Shown here: piece after piece, positions 1,415 through 46,404 of the stretch
Position numbering within the stretch: position 1 is the stretch's first letter
How the letters are laid out: every line of letters starts with the position of its first letter
Assembly: GCF_018326305.1 (NCBI RefSeq)
Contig: NZ_AP023416.1
Span: 186,001-250,000, forward strand
Length of the DNA: 64,000 nt
Direction: 5' to 3'
Source: Vescimonas fastidiosa
GTDB taxonomy: Bacteria; Bacillota; Clostridia; Oscillospirales; Oscillospiraceae
The notes under the pieces: model-generated
What the model saw: the letters and a program-made list of their open reading frames with translations, nothing else
Told to the model about the DNA's origin: nothing
Database searches by the model: none
Translations under genes and position numbers: made by a program

Positions 1415-1690
1415 ATGAACAAAACCGAACTGATTGCTGCTGTTGCAGAGAAGAGCGGTCTGTCCAAGAAGGACAGCGAGGCCGCCGTAGTCGCCACCAT
1501 TGCCGCCATCACCGACGCTCTGAAGGCGGACGATAAGGTGCAGATTGTTGGCTTCGGCTCCTTTGAGGTGAAGAAGAAGGCCGCCCACATGGGCCGCAAC
1601 CCCCGCACCGGCGAGGCCATGAAGATCGCTGCCAGCAAGAACCCCACCTTCAAGGCCGGCAAGGCTCTGAAGGACGCCGTGGCTGAGTAA
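1415..1690 (+). CDS. hup: DNA-binding protein HU
   Basis: 91 residues with the full HU/IHF fold. It starts [20 protein letters not shown], has the GFGSFEV turn, and carries the beta-arm around [12 protein letters not shown] with the intercalating proline. HU bends and compacts the nucleoid as a dimer. A strong GGAGGAAATG ribosome site precedes the ATG. The gene has its own terminator directly downstream. In B. subtilis hbs is not part of the yabM-yabR block, so HU looks inserted here between mazG and yabO. Confidence 0.97.
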
Positions 1691-3151: not shown

Positions 3152-3574
3152 ATGGATTTGGCGGTTGGGAATATCGTCACCGGAAAGGTGACCACCATCA
3201 CAAAGTTCGGGGCGTTCATCGCCCTGCCGGAGGGAAAAAGCGGCTTGGTGCATATTTCGGAGGTGGCCCCCACCTTTGTCAGTGATGTGCATGATTTTCT
3301 GACAGAGGGCCAGGAGGTCACCGTGAAGATACTGGCCATCACGCCGGAGGGGAAGATCAACCTCTCCATCAAGCAGGCCATGCCCCGTCCCCAGCGTCCC
3401 GGGCGTCGGGAAGCCCCTGCCCGCCGGACCGCGCCTACCCCCGCCGCGCCCCCGGAGCCGGCGGAGCAGACCTTTGAGGACAAGCTCAAGCAGTTTATGT
3501 CCGTGTCCGACAGCAAGCAGTCTGAGCTCAACCGCTACATAGCCGGTAAACGCGGCGGCCGCCGCAGAAAGTAA
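3152..3574 (+). CDS. S1-domain RNA-binding protein (YabR type)
   Basis: 140 residues. Residues 1-75 form an S1 domain (VGNIVTGKVTTITKFGAFIA, then LVHISEVA and INLSIKQA). A proline/arginine-rich linker (about 80-110) and a basic RGGRRRK tail follow. S1 proteins bind single-stranded RNA, often in translation or degradation complexes. It closes the conserved block, as yabR does in Bacillus, and a strong terminator follows. The substrate RNA cannot be told from sequence. Confidence 0.88.
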   Translation: MDLAVGNIVTGKVTTITKFGAFIALPEGKSGLVHISEVAPTFVSDVHDFLTEGQEVTVKILAITPEGKINLSIKQAMPRPQRPGRREAPARRTAPTPAAPPEPAEQTFEDKLKQFMSVSDSKQSELNRYIAGKRGGRRRK

Positions 3575-3577
3575 AGC

Positions 3578-3612
3578 AAGCTCCCCGCACGATAAGGGCG
3601 GGGAGCTTTTCC
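3578..3612 (+). terminator. Rho-independent terminator closing the yab block
   Basis: An 11-bp stem AAGCTCCCCGC/GCGGGGAGCTT (3578-3588 with 3598-3608) is followed by T residues. Confidence 0.9.
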
Positions 3613-3628
3613 TATGTCTATACGGGCC

Positions 3629-3905
3629 TACCATCGGTTGACAAGGGCAAACATGGTTTTGACGGGCAGAAATACGCCCATACCGCGTCAAGCCCCTTGG
3701 AAATACGACAAGTATTCCCTGCGGGTCTTTCCTTGTCTGGACGTATTTCTGCGCGGCAAAACTGCTTCGCACCTGCCAGCGATGGATTTCCGAGCGATTT
3801 TTGGCTTTTGAGCCGCAGGCGGGCTGGCGCCCGCCAAGGTGAGAAGGGCAAAAAGCGCCGCAAAGGCGCACTGGCAGGCGTGTTTGCCCTTGTCAACCGA
3901 TGGTA
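3629..3905. repeat. 277-bp MITE-like element with 24-bp perfect terminal inverted repeats
   Basis: Bases 3629-3652 and 3882-3905 are exact reverse complements of each other over 24 bp. A second inverted pair (CAGAAATACG near 3667 and CGTATTTCTG near 3741) lies inside. No transposase or convincing gene lies within; the open frames on both strands read through the arms. No clear target duplication is visible. It sits between the yab terminator and the 3' end of the carbonic anhydrase gene. A miniature transposable element or a large intergenic repeat are both possible. Confidence 0.75.
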
Positions 3906-3909
3906 TCGC

Positions 3910-4398
3910 TTACTCTGCATACTCTGCCGCTTCCCGGCAGTAAAATTCGGCAGCGGCGCGGTTGGAGCGCACCTCTTCCTCCGTCAGAGCCCGGCGGACC
4001 TTGGCCGGGGAGCCGAATGCCAGACTGCCGTCGGGAATTTCCATCCCCTGGGGCACCAGGGCCCCGGCGCCGATGATGCAGTCCCGGCCGATTTTCGCAC
4101 CGTTGAGCACGATGGCGCCCATACCCACCAGGGTATTATCGCCGATGGTGCAGCCGTGTAGAATGGCCCCGTGGCCGATGGTGCAGCCCCGGCCGATGCG
4201 GATGGGGAAGCCCGCATCGGTGTGGAGGACGCAGTTGTCCTGGATATTGGTGTCGGGGCCGATAAGCGTCTCCTCCGACTCCGAGCGGATCACCGCGCCA
4301 AAATAGATGCTGCTGCCCGGCCCGGCGGTAACATGGCCCCGGACGGTGGCATTCTCCGCCACAAAGGCGGCCTGGGGCAGCTTGGTTTTCTCAATCAT
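3910..4398 (-). CDS. Gamma-carbonic-anhydrase-family left-handed beta-helix protein
   Basis: 162 residues made of hexapeptide repeats (GCTIGHGAILHGCTIGDNTL is typical), which form a left-handed parallel beta-helix trimer. Histidines that would bind metal between subunits are present in that segment and in the preceding LHTDAG region. The family includes gamma-carbonic anhydrases (CO2 to bicarbonate) and the YrdA/PaaY-like proteins, many without proven activity. The ATG has an AAGGAGG ribosome site. Function beyond the fold is inferred. Confidence 0.88.
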   Translation of the reverse strand: MIEKTKLPQAAFVAENATVRGHVTAGPGSSIYFGAVIRSESEETLIGPDTNIQDNCVLHTDAGFPIRIGRGCTIGHGAILHGCTIGDNTLVGMGAIVLNGAKIGRDCIIGAGALVPQGMEIPDGSLAFGSPAKVRRALTEEEVRSNRAAAEFYCREAAEYAE

Positions 4399-5538: not shown

Positions 5539-5623
5539 GCGGGCATGATGGAATTGGTAGACATGCGAGATTTAGGTTCTCGTGCAGTGATGCGTTGGGG
5601 TTCGAGTCCCCATGCCCGCACCA
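5539..5623 (+). tRNA. tRNA-Leu (anticodon TAG)
   Basis: 85 nt including an encoded CCA. The acceptor stem is GCGGGCA/TGCCCGC and the anticodon arm is CGAGA-TTTAGGT-TCTCG. It has the long variable arm of class II tRNAs and a TTCGAGT T-loop. Confidence 0.95.
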
Positions 5624-5624
5624 G

Positions 5625-5660
5625 GCCGCCGCAGGTTCTCTTGCGGCGGCTAAATTTTTA
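5625..5660 (+). terminator. tRNA-Leu terminator
   Basis: Stem GCCGCCGCA/TGCGGCGGC (5625-5633 with 5642-5650), then TAAATTTTT. Confidence 0.85.
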
Positions 5661-5697
5661 TCGTTAGCGCAGATCCTACCCCTTATCGGCCCTCTCC

Positions 5698-5724
5698 AAA
5701 AAAGCCGCCCAAAGGCGGCTTTTT
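5698..5724 (-). terminator. Terminator downstream of the tetR-family gene
   Basis: GCCGCC/GGCGGC stem with A-run and T-run flanks on both sides, so it can work in both directions. Confidence 0.7.
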
Positions 5725-5754
5725 CCGTTGATTCACATTGTTGTACCGAAGCCC

Positions 5755-6303
5755 TCACGCCTCTACCTGCACAGCGCTGGCCAGGAAGCTGTCAAACAGG
5801 TCGGCCAGCCGGTCCACGCTGGTATCGATGTCGTTTTCCATACGGTTCCAGAAAAACTGCATCACAAACCCGATGTAAGCATAGCGGCAAAAGGACGCCA
5901 CGCTGCGCACCCGCTCCTCGGGCAGCTCCCGTCCCTGGGCCGCCTGCCGAGCCAGGCGGTAAAACACATCGTCCGTCAAGGAGAAGATATATCGCTCCAT
6001 CCGGTCCCGGGACAGGCCGTCGAAAATGTGATATATAACCTTCGGATGGTCCTTGCACCGGTGCAGCACAGCCTTAGTGGCGCTTTTCCACTCCAAAAAA
6101 GAGTCTGCCGGGGCATAGAACTCCACCACCTGCCGAAACCAGGCGTCCAGCAGGGCGTAAATATCCTCATAGTGGTAGTAAAAGGTATTGGGGCTGACCC
6201 CGGCGCGCTTGACCAGAGCGGCCACGGTGATCTTGTCAAAGGGCAGCTCCTCCAGCATCTCCGCAAAGGCGGTCATAATGAGCTTTTTCGTGTACAGTGC
6301 CAC
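5755..6303 (-). CDS. TetR-family transcriptional regulator
   Basis: 182 residues. The first 50 form a TetR helix-turn-helix (FDKITVAALVKRAGVSPNTF then YYHYEDIYALLDAWF), and the rest is an all-helical ligand/dimer domain. Such proteins are usually repressors released by a small ligand. The start is GTG at 6303 with GGAGGTG upstream. The next gene on the same strand is yitT, about 80 bases further upstream, so the regulator may lie in the yitT transcript or control it. No operator is obvious. Confidence 0.9.
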   Translation of the reverse strand: MALYTKKLIMTAFAEMLEELPFDKITVAALVKRAGVSPNTFYYHYEDIYALLDAWFRQVVEFYAPADSFLEWKSATKAVLHRCKDHPKVIYHIFDGLSRDRMERYIFSLTDDVFYRLARQAAQGRELPEERVRSVASFCRYAYIGFVMQFFWNRMENDIDTSVDRLADLFDSFLASAVQVEA

Positions 6304-6381
6304 AGCGGCACCTCCTGTGCAGTCAGTGTCTCTGTCTGTATTGTATCGGAAATGCCCCCAAAATGCAAGGGCTTTCGCCCA

Positions 6382-7263
6382 TCAGCTCAGGTGCTTCTCG
6401 AAGTTGCCGCCCACGCGAACTCCCTCCTGCACGATGAAGAAGGCATTGGGGTCCACCTTGCGCACCTCCTGCTGCAGGGTCTGGATCTCGTACTTGCTCA
6501 GGCACACGCACAGCACCTGCAGGGGCTGATCCGTGTAGGCGCCGTAGCCCTGCCAGTAGGTCACGCCCCGCTCCAGCCGCTCCATGATAAACTTGGGCAG
6601 CTCCGTGTGCTTCTCCCTGGTGAAGATCAGCACCTGGACGGTGATGCTCTGCTGGTGGGTCCGGTCCAGAAACAGGCTGTTAAAGACCGTGTAAATGGTG
6701 GAATAGATGGCGGTGGCGGCATCAAAGAGCACCAGGCAGAGGGCGTAAAGCACGGCGTTGCAGGAGATGCTGAACTTGCCCACGGTGAAGCCCTTACCCT
6801 TCTTGCTCATGTACAGGCCCAGGATGTCAAATCCGCCGCTGCTGCACCCGCAGGTCAGCACGATGCCCCCGGCAAAGCCGTTGACCATGCCCCCCAGGAG
6901 GCAGCTGGTGAGGGTGTCCTCCACGATGGGGTGGGCCGGCACCGGTATCATAGTCAGAAACAGGGAGCAGCACACCGTGCAGGTCATCGTCCGCACCACA
7001 AAGCCCCGGCCCATGGTTTTCCACGCCAGTATGAGCAGCGGTATATTCAGCAGCAGGTACAGAACGCCGGAGATGTCGAAGCCCGGGTCCACGCCCAGCC
7101 TTTGGGTCAAAATGGAGCGAAACAGCTGGCAGAAGCCCAGCAGACCGCCGGTGTATAGATTGTGCGGCACCACAAACAGGTTTATGGATATAGCCATCAG
7201 CAGCACACCCAGAATTCCTATCCCCAGGCGCGCCCAGCGGTTATGCAGCGCTTTGCTGAACAT
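6382..7263 (-). CDS. YitT-family membrane protein (DUF161/DUF2179)
   Basis: 293 residues with five to six membrane helices in the first 200 (ISINLFVVPHNLYTGGLLG and GGIVLTCGCSSGGFDILG are family hallmarks) and a C-terminal soluble DUF2179 domain (about 215-290). The family is widespread in Firmicutes; it is thought to be a transporter, but the substrate is not established. The ATG has GGAGGAGC upstream and a strong promoter at 7297-7325. Confidence 0.9.
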   Translation of the reverse strand: MFSKALHNRWARLGIGILGVLLMAISINLFVVPHNLYTGGLLGFCQLFRSILTQRLGVDPGFDISGVLYLLLNIPLLILAWKTMGRGFVVRTMTCTVCCSLFLTMIPVPAHPIVEDTLTSCLLGGMVNGFAGGIVLTCGCSSGGFDILGLYMSKKGKGFTVGKFSISCNAVLYALCLVLFDAATAIYSTIYTVFNSLFLDRTHQQSITVQVLIFTREKHTELPKFIMERLERGVTYWQGYGAYTDQPLQVLCVCLSKYEIQTLQQEVRKVDPNAFFIVQEGVRVGGNFEKHLS

Positions 7264-7296
7264 GATATGCTCCTCCTTCTATCTGTCCTTTTTCTC

Positions 7297-7325
7297 ATTA
7301 TTCCCATTTCCCGGCCAAATGTCAA
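7297..7325 (-). promoter_or_regulatory. yitT promoter
   Basis: On the minus strand: TTGACA (complement of 7320-7325), 17 bases, AATAAT (complement of 7297-7302). Confidence 0.7.
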
Positions 7326-7328
7326 TAG

Positions 7329-7373
7329 AAAAAAATCCGACTGCGGGAAAAACCATCCGGGTTTTTCCCGCAG
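7329..7373 (-). terminator. Terminator after the sigma-like gene
   Basis: A near-perfect stem of about 14 bp (7341-7355 with 7359-7373) is followed on the minus strand by TCGGATTTTTTT. It overlaps the start of the yitT promoter region. Confidence 0.85.
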
Positions 7374-7418
7374 ATGTGCTGCGGAGCTGGCAGGGGAGGA
7401 GCCCCTGCGCCGTAAGGG

Positions 7419-7715
7419 TTATAGACTGTAGCGCAGGGACTTATAAAGCCGCTCTATGCTCCGGGCTAAGGACCGGGACACGGTGGACTTGTTCAGCCCC
7501 AGCTTTTCGGCGATGGCGGTGACGCTCATGCCGCCGGTGAAGCGCAGCCGCAGAATTTCCCGCTGCCTAGGCGTCAGCTCCTGCTGCACCGCCAGAGGAA
7601 GGTTGCTGAGCAGACGGCGGATGCGCTCCCGATTGTCGCCGGACTCCTCCTGCCGCCACAGGCACAGGCTGGCGATGTCGATGGGGTCGAAGGCCTCAGA
7701 GGGTGTAGTACGCAT
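7419..7715 (-). CDS. Small sigma-70 region-4-like DNA-binding protein
   Basis: 98 residues. The C-terminal two thirds is a sigma region 4 helix-turn-helix (LTPRQREILRLRFTGGMSVT, then AIAEKLGLNKSTVSRSLARS). There is no region 2, so it cannot be a complete sigma factor; it may be a DNA-binding regulator or one half of a split factor. The ATG lies inside the upstream coiled-coil gene (20-bp overlap), so the two are coupled. A strong terminator follows. Confidence 0.75.
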   Translation of the reverse strand: MRTTPSEAFDPIDIASLCLWRQEESGDNRERIRRLLSNLPLAVQQELTPRQREILRLRFTGGMSVTAIAEKLGLNKSTVSRSLARSIERLYKSLRYSL

Positions 7716-7929
7716 TTTTGTGATACCCCCTGTCGTAATAGCGGGCGGTGAGCTCCGCCAGCTGGCGGGACTCCCGGTGCAGCGGCTCCAGGTCCCGGAT
7801 GCGCTGGCGCAGATGCTCCTCGTTCTCCCGACTCTCGCATTGGGCCTGGGCCCGGCGCAGATCCACGATCCGCTGGTGCAGAACCCGGGCCTGCTCCTGA
7901 TACTGGTACGATAGCTGCTGTAGTGTCAT
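7696..7929 (-). CDS. Small coiled-coil protein, unknown function
   Basis: 77 residues, highly charged and helical (QYQEQARVLHQRIVDLRRAQ, then EEHLRQRIRDLEPLHRESRQ), predicted to be one long coiled coil. I do not recognise a family. The longer frame to 8226 runs through two tRNA genes and is rejected; the ATG at 7929 has GGAGAACGGAGACT upstream. It overlaps the sigma-region-4 gene by 20 bases, which suggests the two proteins act together, perhaps as a split regulator. Confidence 0.7.
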   Translation of the reverse strand: MTLQQLSYQYQEQARVLHQRIVDLRRAQAQCESRENEEHLRQRIRDLEPLHRESRQLAELTARYYDRGYHKNAYYTL

Positions 7930-7986
7930 AGTCTCCGTTCTCCTTTTCCATATGTAAAAATTTTGCGGGCCAAATGCACTTTTTTG

Positions 7987-8015
7987 TTGACAAAGCTCGC
8001 GGTTTGTGGTAGCAT
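7987..8015 (+). promoter_or_regulatory. Promoter of the tRNA-Thr/tRNA-Tyr pair
   Basis: TTGACA (7987-7992), 17 bases, TAGCAT (8010-8015), 19 bases before tRNA-Thr. Confidence 0.6.
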
Positions 8016-8034
8016 AATGTTCGCTGGTTGTTGT

Positions 8035-8110
8035 GCTGGTGTAGCTCAGCTGGTAGAGCAGCTGATTTGTAATCAGCAGGTCGGGGGTTCGAATCCGTCC
8101 ACCAGCTCCA
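8035..8110 (+). tRNA. tRNA-Thr (anticodon TGT)
   Basis: 76 nt with encoded CCA. Acceptor GCTGGTG/CACCAGC, anticodon arm CTGAT-TTGTAAT-CAG-type with TGT, T-loop TTCGAAT. Confidence 0.95.
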
Positions 8111-8126
8111 ATTTCATAGATAATAT

Positions 8127-8211
8127 GGGGGATTTCCCGAGTGGCCAAAGGGGACAGACTGTAAATCTGCTGGCGATGCCTTCGGTGGTTCGAATCCACC
8201 ATCCCCCACCA
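8127..8211 (+). tRNA. tRNA-Tyr (anticodon GTA)
   Basis: 85 nt class II tRNA with encoded CCA. Acceptor GGGGGAT/ATCCCCC, anticodon loop CTGTAAA, long variable arm. Confidence 0.95.
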
Positions 8212-32918: not shown

Positions 32919-32960
32919 TTTTTGTTGATTGCGGAGAGGAGGAAAAGGCGAAAAGAAAAA

Positions 32961-32996
32961 CACCCGCAGTCCGTTTGCGGGCGTTTTCTTCCCAGA
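32961..32996 (-). terminator. Terminator in the immunity region
   Basis: ACCCGCA/TGCGGGC stem (32972-32978 with 32986-32992), with AAAAACA on the left and GTTTTCTT on the right, so it can act in both directions. It ends the minus-strand transcript described next. Confidence 0.75.
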
Positions 32997-33243
32997 TTTG
33001 TTACCAGAGTGCGCTGCACAGACTGTTCACCGGCAATCCTTAGCCGATGGCCAAGCCGTCATTCTTGCGGCTCGGAAATGCCAGTCTGACGAAAAACGGA
33101 CTTCCGTTTCTGTGACGCACCGCTCACTTTGGCAGTTCTGGGGCAGCCTGACCCTATCGCATTGCGCCGGTACTTCGGTCTGGAACGGGCAAAGTCAAAA
33201 GGTTGGTCAAAAAGTCCACCTCCTTAAATTTGCCGCAAGGGCT
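32965..33243 (-). ncRNA. Short minus-strand transcript of the immunity region
   Basis: Promoter: TTGACT (complement of 33273-33278), 17 bases, TATACT (complement of 33250-33255). An ideal AAGGAGGTGG ribosome site (33216-33225) is followed by TTG at 33210 and an 18-codon frame ending at 33154 (TNLLTLPVPDRSTGAMR after the start). The transcript ends at the terminator near 32965, about 280 nt in all. No longer protein fits. It could be a leader-peptide RNA or an antisense-type regulator; it lies opposite the gap between the CI and Cro genes. Confidence 0.55.
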
Positions 33244-44001: not shown

Positions 44002-44466
44002 ATGAGCAAAAAGGCGACGCTGCCTTATGATGTGCGGTTGGAGTGCATTGCTTATGTGCGTGGATATCCGCGCCGGGTGCGGGCGTATCGCGAGGCCCGG
44101 GCGGAGATCCTGGGCGGGACGCATGGCGCCACAGAGGGCATGCCAACTGGATCGGGCGCTGGTAGGCCCGCCGAGAGCAAGGCGGAGCAGCTTGCAGCCA
44201 TAGAGCGATGGCCGGAGACGCAAAAGATGCTGGCGGTGGAATACGCCATAGACCGCTGCGGCAGAGATATCGGCAGCGATACAATCCGGCGGCAGCTAAT
44301 ATATGGCATTATGCGCAACTGCCAAGGCAAGCACAAGTATGCCCGTAATCGGATCGTGATTCCGGGTATCAGCGAGAGAACATTCAGCCGGAGGAAAGAG
44401 CAATTTCTATATGACATAGCCATATATTGTGGTTTTGCAGAGAAAGTTGGCACAAATTCCGCCTAA
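44002..44466 (+). CDS. RinA/ArpU-like late transcription regulator
   Basis: 154 residues, basic. The C-terminal RNRIVIPGISERTFSRRKEQ followed by FLYDIAIYCGF is typical of the RinA/ArpU group that activates late (packaging and structural) operons of Gram-positive phages. Its position, just before the terminase region, supports the role. AAAGGAGGGC precedes the ATG at 44002. Confidence 0.78.
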   Translation: MSKKATLPYDVRLECIAYVRGYPRRVRAYREARAEILGGTHGATEGMPTGSGAGRPAESKAEQLAAIERWPETQKMLAVEYAIDRCGRDIGSDTIRRQLIYGIMRNCQGKHKYARNRIVIPGISERTFSRRKEQFLYDIAIYCGFAEKVGTNSA

Positions 44467-44471
44467 TGATG

Positions 44472-44480
44472 TGCTACAAT
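44472..44480 (+). promoter_or_regulatory. Extended -10 promoter before the non-coding region
   Basis: TGC-TACAAT with an extra TG upstream; no good -35 at 17 bases. It could start the structured RNA and the late operon, and would be a natural RinA target. Confidence 0.5.
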
Positions 44481-44486
44481 AGGTAC

Positions 44487-45190
44487 AGTGGATGATAGGA
44501 CATGGTCATTCACGCGTTTTCCCAATCATCACTTTCCTCCCTTCTATGCGCCGCCGGTATTGGGCGCACCTTCTGGCACCGAAAGGTCATACCGGCACAA
44601 ACAGCCTGTAGGGAAACCTATGGGCTGTTGTTATATGCCGTGCGCTCGTTGCACCCCACGATCTGGGGCGGGAGGTCGCACCTCCCACACGGCGCAAATA
44701 TATGCGGGCGGAAGCTGGGAGGAATCAGCTCCGATAGTAAAATTTCGGGTTCGCAGGTTCGAATCCTGCCGTCTGCGCAAGAGGCCGGGTAGCACCCGGA
44801 CACTGTGAGACCGTTCGTCGTGGCTCACATGGAAATGACAATGCTCGCTGAAAACTGCGCTTGTCTTGATGCGTCAAGACCGGTTTGACCAGACGGAATA
44901 GGGGCTACGACTTTTCGGAGCGTAGTTGCCGGTAGCGTGTGACAATCTAAGCGGGAAGACGGCCAATATGCGGCTCCAGATGAAAACGTTGAATCGTTTT
45001 CACCCGCAAGGGGCTTTCTTGGGGCGTATGCCCCACACGCGGCATAGGTGCCCCGTAAGGGGAGACCACAGCGAGTGACGGGGACTTTCCCTAGAAAATA
45101 TAAAAAATAGTGTGTAGCCCATGTTTGAGAGGCCCAAGAGGCCCGCATGGGCGGGGAAAGACTGTTACTGTAGCCAAGGGGTGGGGGTTG
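44487..45190 (+). ncRNA. Candidate large structured non-coding RNA
   Basis: The roughly 745 bases between the RinA-like and ParB-methyltransferase genes have no frame with a ribosome site on either strand. They contain many hairpins in a row: 44553-44596, 44601-44628, a three-way junction 44637-44693 enclosing CCCC/GGGG and GGGAGGT/ACCTCCC helices, the tRNA-like 44704-44777, CCGGGT/ACCCGG 44785-44799, 44804-44829, GAAAACG/CGTTTTC 44982-45001, GGGGC/GCCCC 45021-45034 and GCCCATG/CATGGGC 45117-45152. Size, a tRNA neighbour and a prophage setting recall the ROOL/GOLLD class of giant phage RNAs, but I cannot match it to either by sequence. Confidence 0.55.
44704..44777 (+). tRNA. tRNA-like element with irregular anticodon arm (anticodon not assignable)
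   Basis: 74 nt. Acceptor GCGGGCG/CGTCTGC (two G-U pairs), D-stem AGCT/AGCT, and a perfect T-arm GCAGG-TTCGAAT-CCTGC. The anticodon arm is irregular: CCGA/TCGG with a T-T mismatch and an 8-base loop AGTAAAAT, or a shifted fold with a 6-base loop. CCA is not encoded (CAA follows). Either a degenerate phage tRNA or a tRNA mimic inside the larger RNA. Confidence 0.45.
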
Positions 45191-45211
45191 GTAGCAAAAC
45201 AGGAGGAAAGC

Positions 45212-46404
45212 ATGGAAATCACAAAACGGCGGCTTGCGGATATTGTGCCGTATGCCGGCAACGCAAAAAAGCATGATAAACGGCAAATCAACAACGTTGC
45301 GGAGAGCATCAAGCAATACGGCTTTGTGCAGCCGATTGTGGTTGATCGTGACGGCGTGATCGTAATCGGGCATTGCCGCGCTCTGGCGGCGAAAAAGCTG
45401 GGCATGGAAGAAGTGCCCTGTGTCTGCGTGGACGATCTGACACCGGAGCAAGTGAACGCCCTGCGGCTGGTGGATAACAAGAGCAACGAGAGCGATTGGG
45501 ACTTTGACCTGCTGGCTGATGAGCTGCCGGGGCTTGACCTGTCGGCTTTTGACTTTGATTGGGGCCTGCGTGATGAACTCGACACGTCAGTGGTAGAGGA
45601 CAACTACGATCCTGTTTTACCGGCAGAGCCGAAGAGCAAACTGGGCGATGTGTACCAGCTTGGAGACCATCGCCTTATGTGCGGAGACAGCACATCTTTG
45701 ACAGACGTACAGAAGCTCGTGGGGGGGCACAAATGGATTTGCTGCTCACAGACCCCCCGTACAATGTGGACTATCAGGGCACCGCCGGGAAGATTAAGAA
45801 CGACAATATGGAGGATACGGCCTTCAGGCGTTTTCTGACGGATGCATTCTCCAATGCGGCGATGGTCATGAAGCCCGGTGCTCCGTTCTACATCTGGCAT
45901 GCAGACAGCGAGGGGTATAACTTCCGAGGCGCGTGCAGAGATGCGATGCTGCGTGTCCAGCAGTGCCTGATCTGGGTGAAGAACTCCCTTGTGATGGGGA
46001 GACAAGATTTCCAGTGGAAACATGAGCCTTGCCTGTATGGTGAGAGCGAGATTGAAGAGGAAGCACACGAACCTTGCCTGTACGGATGGACGGAAGGGAA
46101 GAAGCACTATTTCTTCAAGAACCGCAGACAGACAACCGTGCTGAATTTCGATAAGCCCGTCAAGTCTGCGGAGCATCCGACCATGAAGCCGATTAAGCTG
46201 TTTGATTACCAGATGCAGTGCTCCAGTAAGCTGGGTGAGAATGTGCTTGACCTGTTCGCTGGGTCCGGCACAACAATCATGGCAGCGGAGCAGAATGGCA
46301 GACACGCCTTCTGCATGGAGTATGACCCGAAGTATGCCGACGTCATTATTGATCGATGGGAAAAGTTTACCGGAGAAAAGGCGGTGCTTCTGAATGACGA
46401 TTGA
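45212..46404 (+). pseudogene. ParB-domain DNA methyltransferase, frameshifted at a G7 tract
   Basis: The N-terminal ParB/Srx-type domain (ITKRRLADIVPYAGNAKKHD; PIVVDRDGVIVIGHCRALAA) runs to DVQKLVGG. At the G7 tract 45721-45727 the frame changes. The methyltransferase part (LLLTDPPYNVDYQG with DPPY, then DLFAGSGTTIMAAEQNG) continues in the -1 frame. One extra G would give a single protein of about 397 residues, as in many phages. The enzyme would methylate A or C amino groups of phage DNA. It is the first gene after the non-coding region. The ATG at 45212 has AGGAGGAAAGC. Confidence 0.8.

Follow-up and report, generated by a model that had tools for sequence, protein, structure and literature searches.

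The tRNA cluster of phage T4 encodes RNAs C and D, two stable small RNAs of unknown function, and structured RNAs are also found in phage leaders, as exemplified by the put RNA of HK022 and the 6S late leader of lambda. In phages, ROOL and GOLLD are located close to tRNA islands, their function not being known, according to the part of PMC12286853 cited here, and tRNA arrays contain variable spacers, with non-tRNA segments that may alter the expression or processing of the tRNAs (PMC10910872, likewise cited in part).

Here we describe module A, a structured RNA of gut-Clostridia phages and prophages, in which it often directly adjoins tRNA genes or immediately precedes the packaging genes. By description only, it can be likened to RNAs C and D, which are small RNAs of a tRNA cluster in another phage group, and to HK022 put and lambda 6S, which are leader RNAs as well, but most copies of module A sit beside tRNAs. 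Similar to ROOL and GOLLD, as portrayed in the cited part of PMC12286853, module A is phage-encoded, structured, often near tRNA genes and without a known function; it differs from them in length (about 110-190 nt, as against many hundreds), in matching no Rfam model and in being a unit tightly fitted beside single tRNAs. The array segments of PMC10910872, in the part cited, are of similar size and variable sequence, whereas module A is conserved in both sequence and structure.

The block between the late activator and the terminase genes

The window, namely the whole 64-kb stretch of DNA that was analysed, lies within a 2.5-Mb bacterial genome, and the phage to which the block belongs is therefore a prophage. 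As had been predicted, the block (44467-45211) borders a late activator on its left (stop codon up to 44466) and the ParB-methylase and terminase genes on its right, the first of which starts at 45212. The activator (44002..44466, + strand) is phrog_248-like ('transcriptional activator', PHROGs E 1.9e-5) and has no Pfam match, and relatives of it precede the corresponding blocks of locus L003 (phrog_248, E 2.3e-4) and of the near-identical viral contigs L032 and L033 (89% identical; the same contigs as L047 and L048). On the 3' side, the ParB-N/methylase gene is followed by the small and large terminase subunits, the portal and head genes. The methylase gene itself is split over two frames, its first half running from 45212 and its second being ORF 45679-46404, and the frame changes near a G run at about 45722, either by a real frameshift or by a sequencing error.

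The block was also said to be free of genes, and no credible gene was found in it: none of the three longest frames inside or overlapping it (44488-44808 and 44502-44792 on the + strand, 44825-45451 on the - strand) matched PHROGs at E up to 0.1, and the stretch matching the block in L032, its closest relative, has stops in all three forward frames. Many hairpins are indeed present in its minimum-energy fold, which has an energy of -302.5 kcal/mol, corresponding to a z of -7.7 when compared with 20 dinucleotide shuffles. When tiles of 745 nt were compared across the window (10 shuffles, pooled standard deviation), the block, with a z of -4.7, ranked 7th of 85, so that its fold stability alone is not exceptional, and we rejected this stability as proof of a special block. 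The strongest-folding tile of the window lies at 3492-4236 (pooled z -8.0). A plasmid search with the block gave no match. Elsewhere in the window, genes for tRNA-Leu, tRNA-Thr and tRNA-Tyr at 5539-8211 may mark a flank or integration region, and a FuFi-1 RNA (Rfam RF02986, 89.6 bits) lies on the minus strand at 32954-33169.

The size of the block, its phage origin and its tRNA neighbourhood led the original prediction to recall ROOL and GOLLD, but this reading, or that of a single giant ornate RNA alike, is now highly improbable. At the gathering thresholds of Rfam 15 there was no match in the block, no ROOL or GOLLD in the window and neither of the two in 17 further loci that had been fetched; L036, L054 and L041 lacked both at E up to 0.5. 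A covariance-model search of 44300-45300 with permissive filters, extended to E 1, likewise found neither of them, and its sole Rfam match was a sub-threshold tRNA-Sec. One giant RNA is further contradicted by the mosaic nature of the block, whose modules recur separately in other phages, with module A as a unit of its own. The accompanying suggestion of a new class was borne out in part, namely in that the block holds noncoding, structured, tRNA-associated RNA without an Rfam family.

Modular composition of the block

Comparison with related loci shows the block to be a mosaic leader of exchangeable, mostly tRNA-sized modules: these occur separately in other phages, and L032, in its own version of the block, lacks two of them (C and D). 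Separate pieces of the block are carried by three human-gut phage records. A BLAST search of the phage collection with the block, from which the best three of 600 records were used (H1-H3), gave 47-base matches at E 3 in rows 4-20 among the matches listed. No copy of the block was found by BLAST of 44301-45400 (E up to 0.01) among 26 loci related through the ParB half, nine of which matched in methylase DNA only. L032 and L033 have the activator and much of the block in common with the window, and L032 is 94.6% identical to it over the 224 bases that start at the T arm and include module A; the 5' leader of L032 is followed by a tRNA, in the place of module C and the tRNA-like element of the window. 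In L003 the order of modules differs, B preceding A, and two tRNAs follow A.

The left end of the block had been credited with a promoter, and an extended -10 element, TGCTACAAT (44472..44480, + strand), can be recognized there by eye, with no -35 consensus; L032 has TGGTAAAAT at the same place. It may represent an activator-dependent late promoter, but a sigma-70 scan of 44300-45300 did not score it, returning no promoter and no terminator where about one of each is expected by chance. Downstream lies a 5' leader with the putative panhandle GCCGGTA...TACCGGC (44550..44596, + strand; alignment A4, three sequences), common to the window, L032 and L003. This is followed by a 13-bp hairpin with a GAAA loop and a weak T tract (44600..44629, + strand; minimum-energy fold and alignment A4), a possible attenuator or terminator according to the folding model, which terminator scans left unscored; in L003 its place is taken by another hairpin, after which comes a T run. 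The extended -10 and the hairpin, both seen by eye and neither scored by the scan, could together form a leader akin to lambda 6S, with a late promoter and a terminator.

Such features would suit a cis-acting leader in which module A and its neighbours control how a long, untranslated transcript is elongated, as an antiterminator like HK022 put or as an attenuator, and thereby let polymerase proceed into the late genes or through the remainder of the tRNA array. Besides the terminator-like hairpin near the 5' end, the location of the block between the late activator and the ParB-methylase and terminase genes agrees with this explanation, as does that of the core upstream of the terminase in phage Castelnaud. 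Yet the scan scored no promoter or terminator in the block, and at least three copies of module A (L051, L064 and L070) follow several array tRNAs, away from the start of the transcript; we therefore regard both this control of elongation and the purpose ascribed to it as unlikely.

Module C (44636..44696, + strand; alignment A3, six copies) is tRNA-sized and has the closing stem GCCGTG/CACGGC and inner hairpins, its pairing being judged by eye; further copies are found in L004, L037, L041, L061 and the Flavonifractor phage Castelnaud (L062). The element that follows (44703..44777, + strand) had been described as tRNA-like. This proved to be real, with a 7-bp acceptor-like stem, a D-like arm and a T arm, but it matches the tRNA-Sec model at 25.6 bits only (gathering 47) and ARAGORN calls no tRNA there. 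We rejected it as a normal tRNA on account of its score below the curated threshold, the lack of a normal anticodon arm (by eye) and its 3' end, which is GCA instead of CCA. The copies of module A in L049 and L060 each come after a tRNA-like element that also seems to have no anticodon arm. A 25-base match in genome G079 (L002) was dismissed, being merely a tRNA T arm.

On the 3' side of module A (44778..44967, + strand), module D (44977..45038, + strand) comprises three tandem hairpins and is 84% identical over 64 bases to L005, in which it lies between two tRNAs, the second cut by the contig end. It is adjoined by module B (45039..45093, + strand), which comparison with L003 and L032 indicates to be truncated: by eye, the module extends in these two loci as far as a stem that closes it (CGGCAT/ATGCCG and TGGCGC/GCGCCG), and the window lacks this stem. 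Module E (45149..45211, + strand), a ribosome-binding-site leader directly before the methylase, is shared with L004 (86% identity over 70 bases), where it precedes another reading frame.

The array of the window may thus be partly decayed, given its aberrant tRNA-like element and truncated module B, with module A intact. If the whole were a functionless remnant, a decayed tRNA cluster with recombination debris, elements as degraded or truncated as these two would be expected, but the helices of module A are kept in 20 full copies with two-sided changes, and P4 is kept in most rows. Decay is thus quite unlikely as an account of the block and unlikely for module A, while modules B and D and the tRNA-like element of the window remain candidates for it. 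Exchange has reached into module A as well: L049 and L060 share 98.8% identity over 4018 bases, the similarity stops abruptly within its core and the two are unrelated beyond, which marks a recombination breakpoint.

Module A is a structured RNA family

We collected 25 non-identical copies of module A, 20 of them full and five core-only. The RNA contains the helices P1, P2, P3 and P4 and a 3' tail able to pair with the loop of P2; its core consists of P3, an asymmetric internal loop in which the conserved joints GAAAACUG and GUGACAAUCUA face each other, P4 and the 3' tail. The patterns used for collection fixed the core strings CGCTGAAAACTGC or TGACAATCTAAGCG(G), so that some of the constancy seen in the joints and in inner P3 comes from the collection itself, and left P1, P2 and P4 unfixed. 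The 3'-motif pattern yielded 15 loci in viral contigs (L038, L039 and L040 judged chance), the 5'-core pattern 12 loci in viral contigs and, among 84,980 species genomes, three more (one in Pseudoflavonifractor sp. Marseille-P3106 and one in each of two uncultured Clostridia MAGs), and a looser pattern 17 loci (L057 and L059 judged chance). An exact pattern of 14 bases was present in seven of 400 genomes of the family, the window's own included (L065 and L067 judged chance), and its reverse in none of these 400. All of these chance matches were recognized by the absence of the other half of the motif.

A covariance model, R1, was built from 15 sequences, among them the window, in which it scores 134.7 bits at 44781-44958. 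Outside its training set it finds L056 (132.0 bits), L064 (121.9), L060 (95.8), L070 (93.9) and L058 (79.1). The most independent of these are L058 and L070, as L064 is about 93% identical to L051 at this place, L056 has the variable domain of the window and L060 the 5' part of L049. Counting the window's own genome each time, R1 matched, at E <= 0.001, two of 394 genomes of the order and four of 291 of the class, two of these four (L071 and L072) being weak matches judged chance, and, at E <= 1e-6, one of 398 of the phylum; strict filters, which miss weaker matches, were used on the large genome sets. The family is therefore rare in the sampled genomes. BLAST with other copies gave MT836871 as the sole module A match. 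Each of the four named carriers is either a member of the Clostridia or a phage of such a host. Genome G713, which belongs to the same family as the window, does not differ from the Pseudoflavonifractor carrier over 3014 bases, and the host family is placed by this identity. A 2017 paper reportedly presents 224 candidate RNAs, and an earlier description of module A is possible there. The family was not found in Rfam 15 or in the main texts of the open PMC papers searched, and no such motif is described in the parts of PMC8040213 and PMC2864571 consulted; module A is thus apparently an undescribed structured RNA family of gut-Clostridia phages and prophages.

The original prediction proposed covariation as a check, and this was performed on the central module, module A. 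In alignment A1 (MAFFT, 16 sequences, including L041 with its unrelated 5' half), RNAalifold recovered the same three helices that had been drawn by eye, minus the outermost P1 pair, and 93.1% of the cells were paired, compared to 36-45% in slid controls with partners shifted by 1 to 3 columns. Two-sided changes affected seven pairs and 21 cells, counts reached by one and none of 500 shuffles, respectively. In alignment A5, in which the 20 full copies were fitted to the model and which leans towards the structure by construction, 94.7% of the cells of the three helices were paired, with two-sided changes in 10 pairs and 33 cells (both 0/500 shuffles); the count of further pair types was reached by five of 500 shuffles. 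The shuffle controls on both alignments ignore relatedness among the copies. The three helices thus covary above shuffled and slid controls, which for this module goes against the refutation envisaged in the original prediction, and module A qualifies as a family of structured RNAs.

Two further pairings, P4 and the tail helix, had initially been noticed by eye in the very sequences in which they were then tested, after the near-duplicates L032, L045, L053 and L064 had been dropped from 24 copies. P4, which lies just inside the conserved internal loop, was matched by none of 20000 permutations over 20 rows (relatedness ignored), with only 2-3 pairs kept in several rows. The tail helix, formed by the bases after P3 and the P2 loop, is weaker (73/20000 permutations, 15 full-form rows) and pairs poorly in L049 and L051. 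In the core-only copies the tail can pair with the strand just 5' of P3, well in L061, L062 and L063 and weakly in L041 and L066. L066 is minimal, with P3, loop and P4 only (1499-1563, minus strand). A natural variant of the core occurs in L070 (1501-1658), with shorter joints in the internal loop and a rebuilt P4 (GCATAG/CTATGT).

A conserved coding frame would have argued for a protein instead. All three forward frames contain stops in 19 of 19 full copies, and the reverse frames do so in 19, 13 and 10 of the 19. We rejected a protein-coding reading of module A on these stops and on the failure of all three window ORFs to match PHROGs, with one caveat: the record of Castelnaud annotates the small hypothetical proteins WAK79710.1 and WAK79709.1 over module C and the core.

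Placement beside tRNA genes and proposed function

At near-constant spacing, a called tRNA adjoins module A in 16 of the 25 copies. Among 24 copies examined with ARAGORN, an upstream tRNA ends 59-65 nt before P3 in nine, a distance equal to the length of P1, P2 and linkers, which implies that the RNA starts right after the tRNA there; in 10, P3 is followed by a downstream tRNA at a distance of 10-26 nt, and at least one of the two spacings is found in 15. The 25th copy, L070, has both, lying between tRNA-Glu and tRNA-Ser at 61 and 11 nt (by counting). In the fetched DNA, ARAGORN calls one or more tRNAs no further than 1.5 kb from the core in 19/24 copies and none in five (the window, L041, L049, L061 and L062); in the window and L049, a tRNA-like element was identified before module A by inspection. 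The nearest called tRNA is 139 nt away in L060 and 299 nt in L063, and in L045 a tRNA is cut by the end of the contig, 82 nt beyond the core. Several tRNAs are called ahead of module A in L051 (seven), in the fetched part of L064 (three) and in L070 (seven). The tRNA-island location of ROOL and GOLLD thus applies to the 15/24 copies that adjoin a called tRNA, while the copy of the window adjoins the tRNA-like element only. Just after module A in L034 and L037 we observed short hairpins with an acceptor-like stem ending in GGTGGCACCA, which by eye resemble tRNA minihelices with CCA. Two Rfam phage RNAs lie near copies of module A, int-alpA (L054 2671-2738) and GP20-b (L034 4598-4661).

We slightly favour the explanation that module A is a small RNA cut from tRNA-array transcripts by tRNA-processing enzymes and acting late in infection. 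According to this proposal, the block would serve as the late-operon leader of the prophage, a short tRNA-array-like transcript of exchangeable modules, in which module A is co-transcribed with the neighbouring tRNAs. It would be freed by 3'-end processing of the upstream tRNA and by RNase P at the downstream tRNA, would accumulate as a stable small RNA and might then act in trans, its object being translation or those functions of the host that are directed at tRNAs. Its release by tRNA processing is least certain in the window, as no ARAGORN tRNA lies within 1.5 kb there. The copies behind several array tRNAs (L051, L064 and L070) argue for a late RNA acting in trans over a leader acting in cis.

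The same downstream tRNAs raise a different explanation, a ribozyme-like or protein-bound structure that helps in cis to excise the tRNA or tRNA-like RNA behind it. The spacing of 10-26 nt in 10/24 copies would fit such an element, as would the compact core with its conserved joints and the minimal P3-loop-P4 form of L066, which lies 3' of a gene recognized by eye as that of the DNA-binding protein HU and has tRNA-Leu 126 nt downstream. Nevertheless, a called tRNA is lacking over the 1.5 kb downstream in the window, L034 and L037, and over 500 nt in L051. Nor did any Rfam ribozyme reach threshold in the window and 17 loci, or E 1 in the block; a nuclear RNase P match beside the core in L041 (16.9 bits, gathering 28) is attributed to chance. 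Taken together, this makes cis processing distinctly unlikely.

Returning to the small RNA acting in trans, we can offer a bolder version only tentatively: an undescribed phage RNA cassette, held between tRNAs and processed by the host, that acts in trans as a decoy or modulator of tRNA-directed functions and that forms, with the tRNA-like modules, a swappable toolkit of small structured RNAs, which some phages would have transferred to their late leader. The functions so targeted could, equally tentatively, be translation or the defences that cut tRNAs.

The isolated Flavonifractor phage Castelnaud carries module C and the core of module A, the latter upstream of the HNH and terminase genes. 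As stated in the cited part of PMC10197239, it is among 13 induced prophages of a twelve-member mouse-gut consortium, its host being Flavonifractor plautii. Lying ahead of the methylase and terminase genes, as in the window, or of HNH and terminase, as in Castelnaud, fits a late RNA acting in trans or a leader acting in cis.

Phage tRNA islands are known for large RNAs of unknown function, and to these module A adds a compact family with a defined core, a near-constant placement by tRNAs and, in Castelnaud, a laboratory carrier of that core, through which the role of non-tRNA RNAs in phage tRNA islands becomes directly testable.
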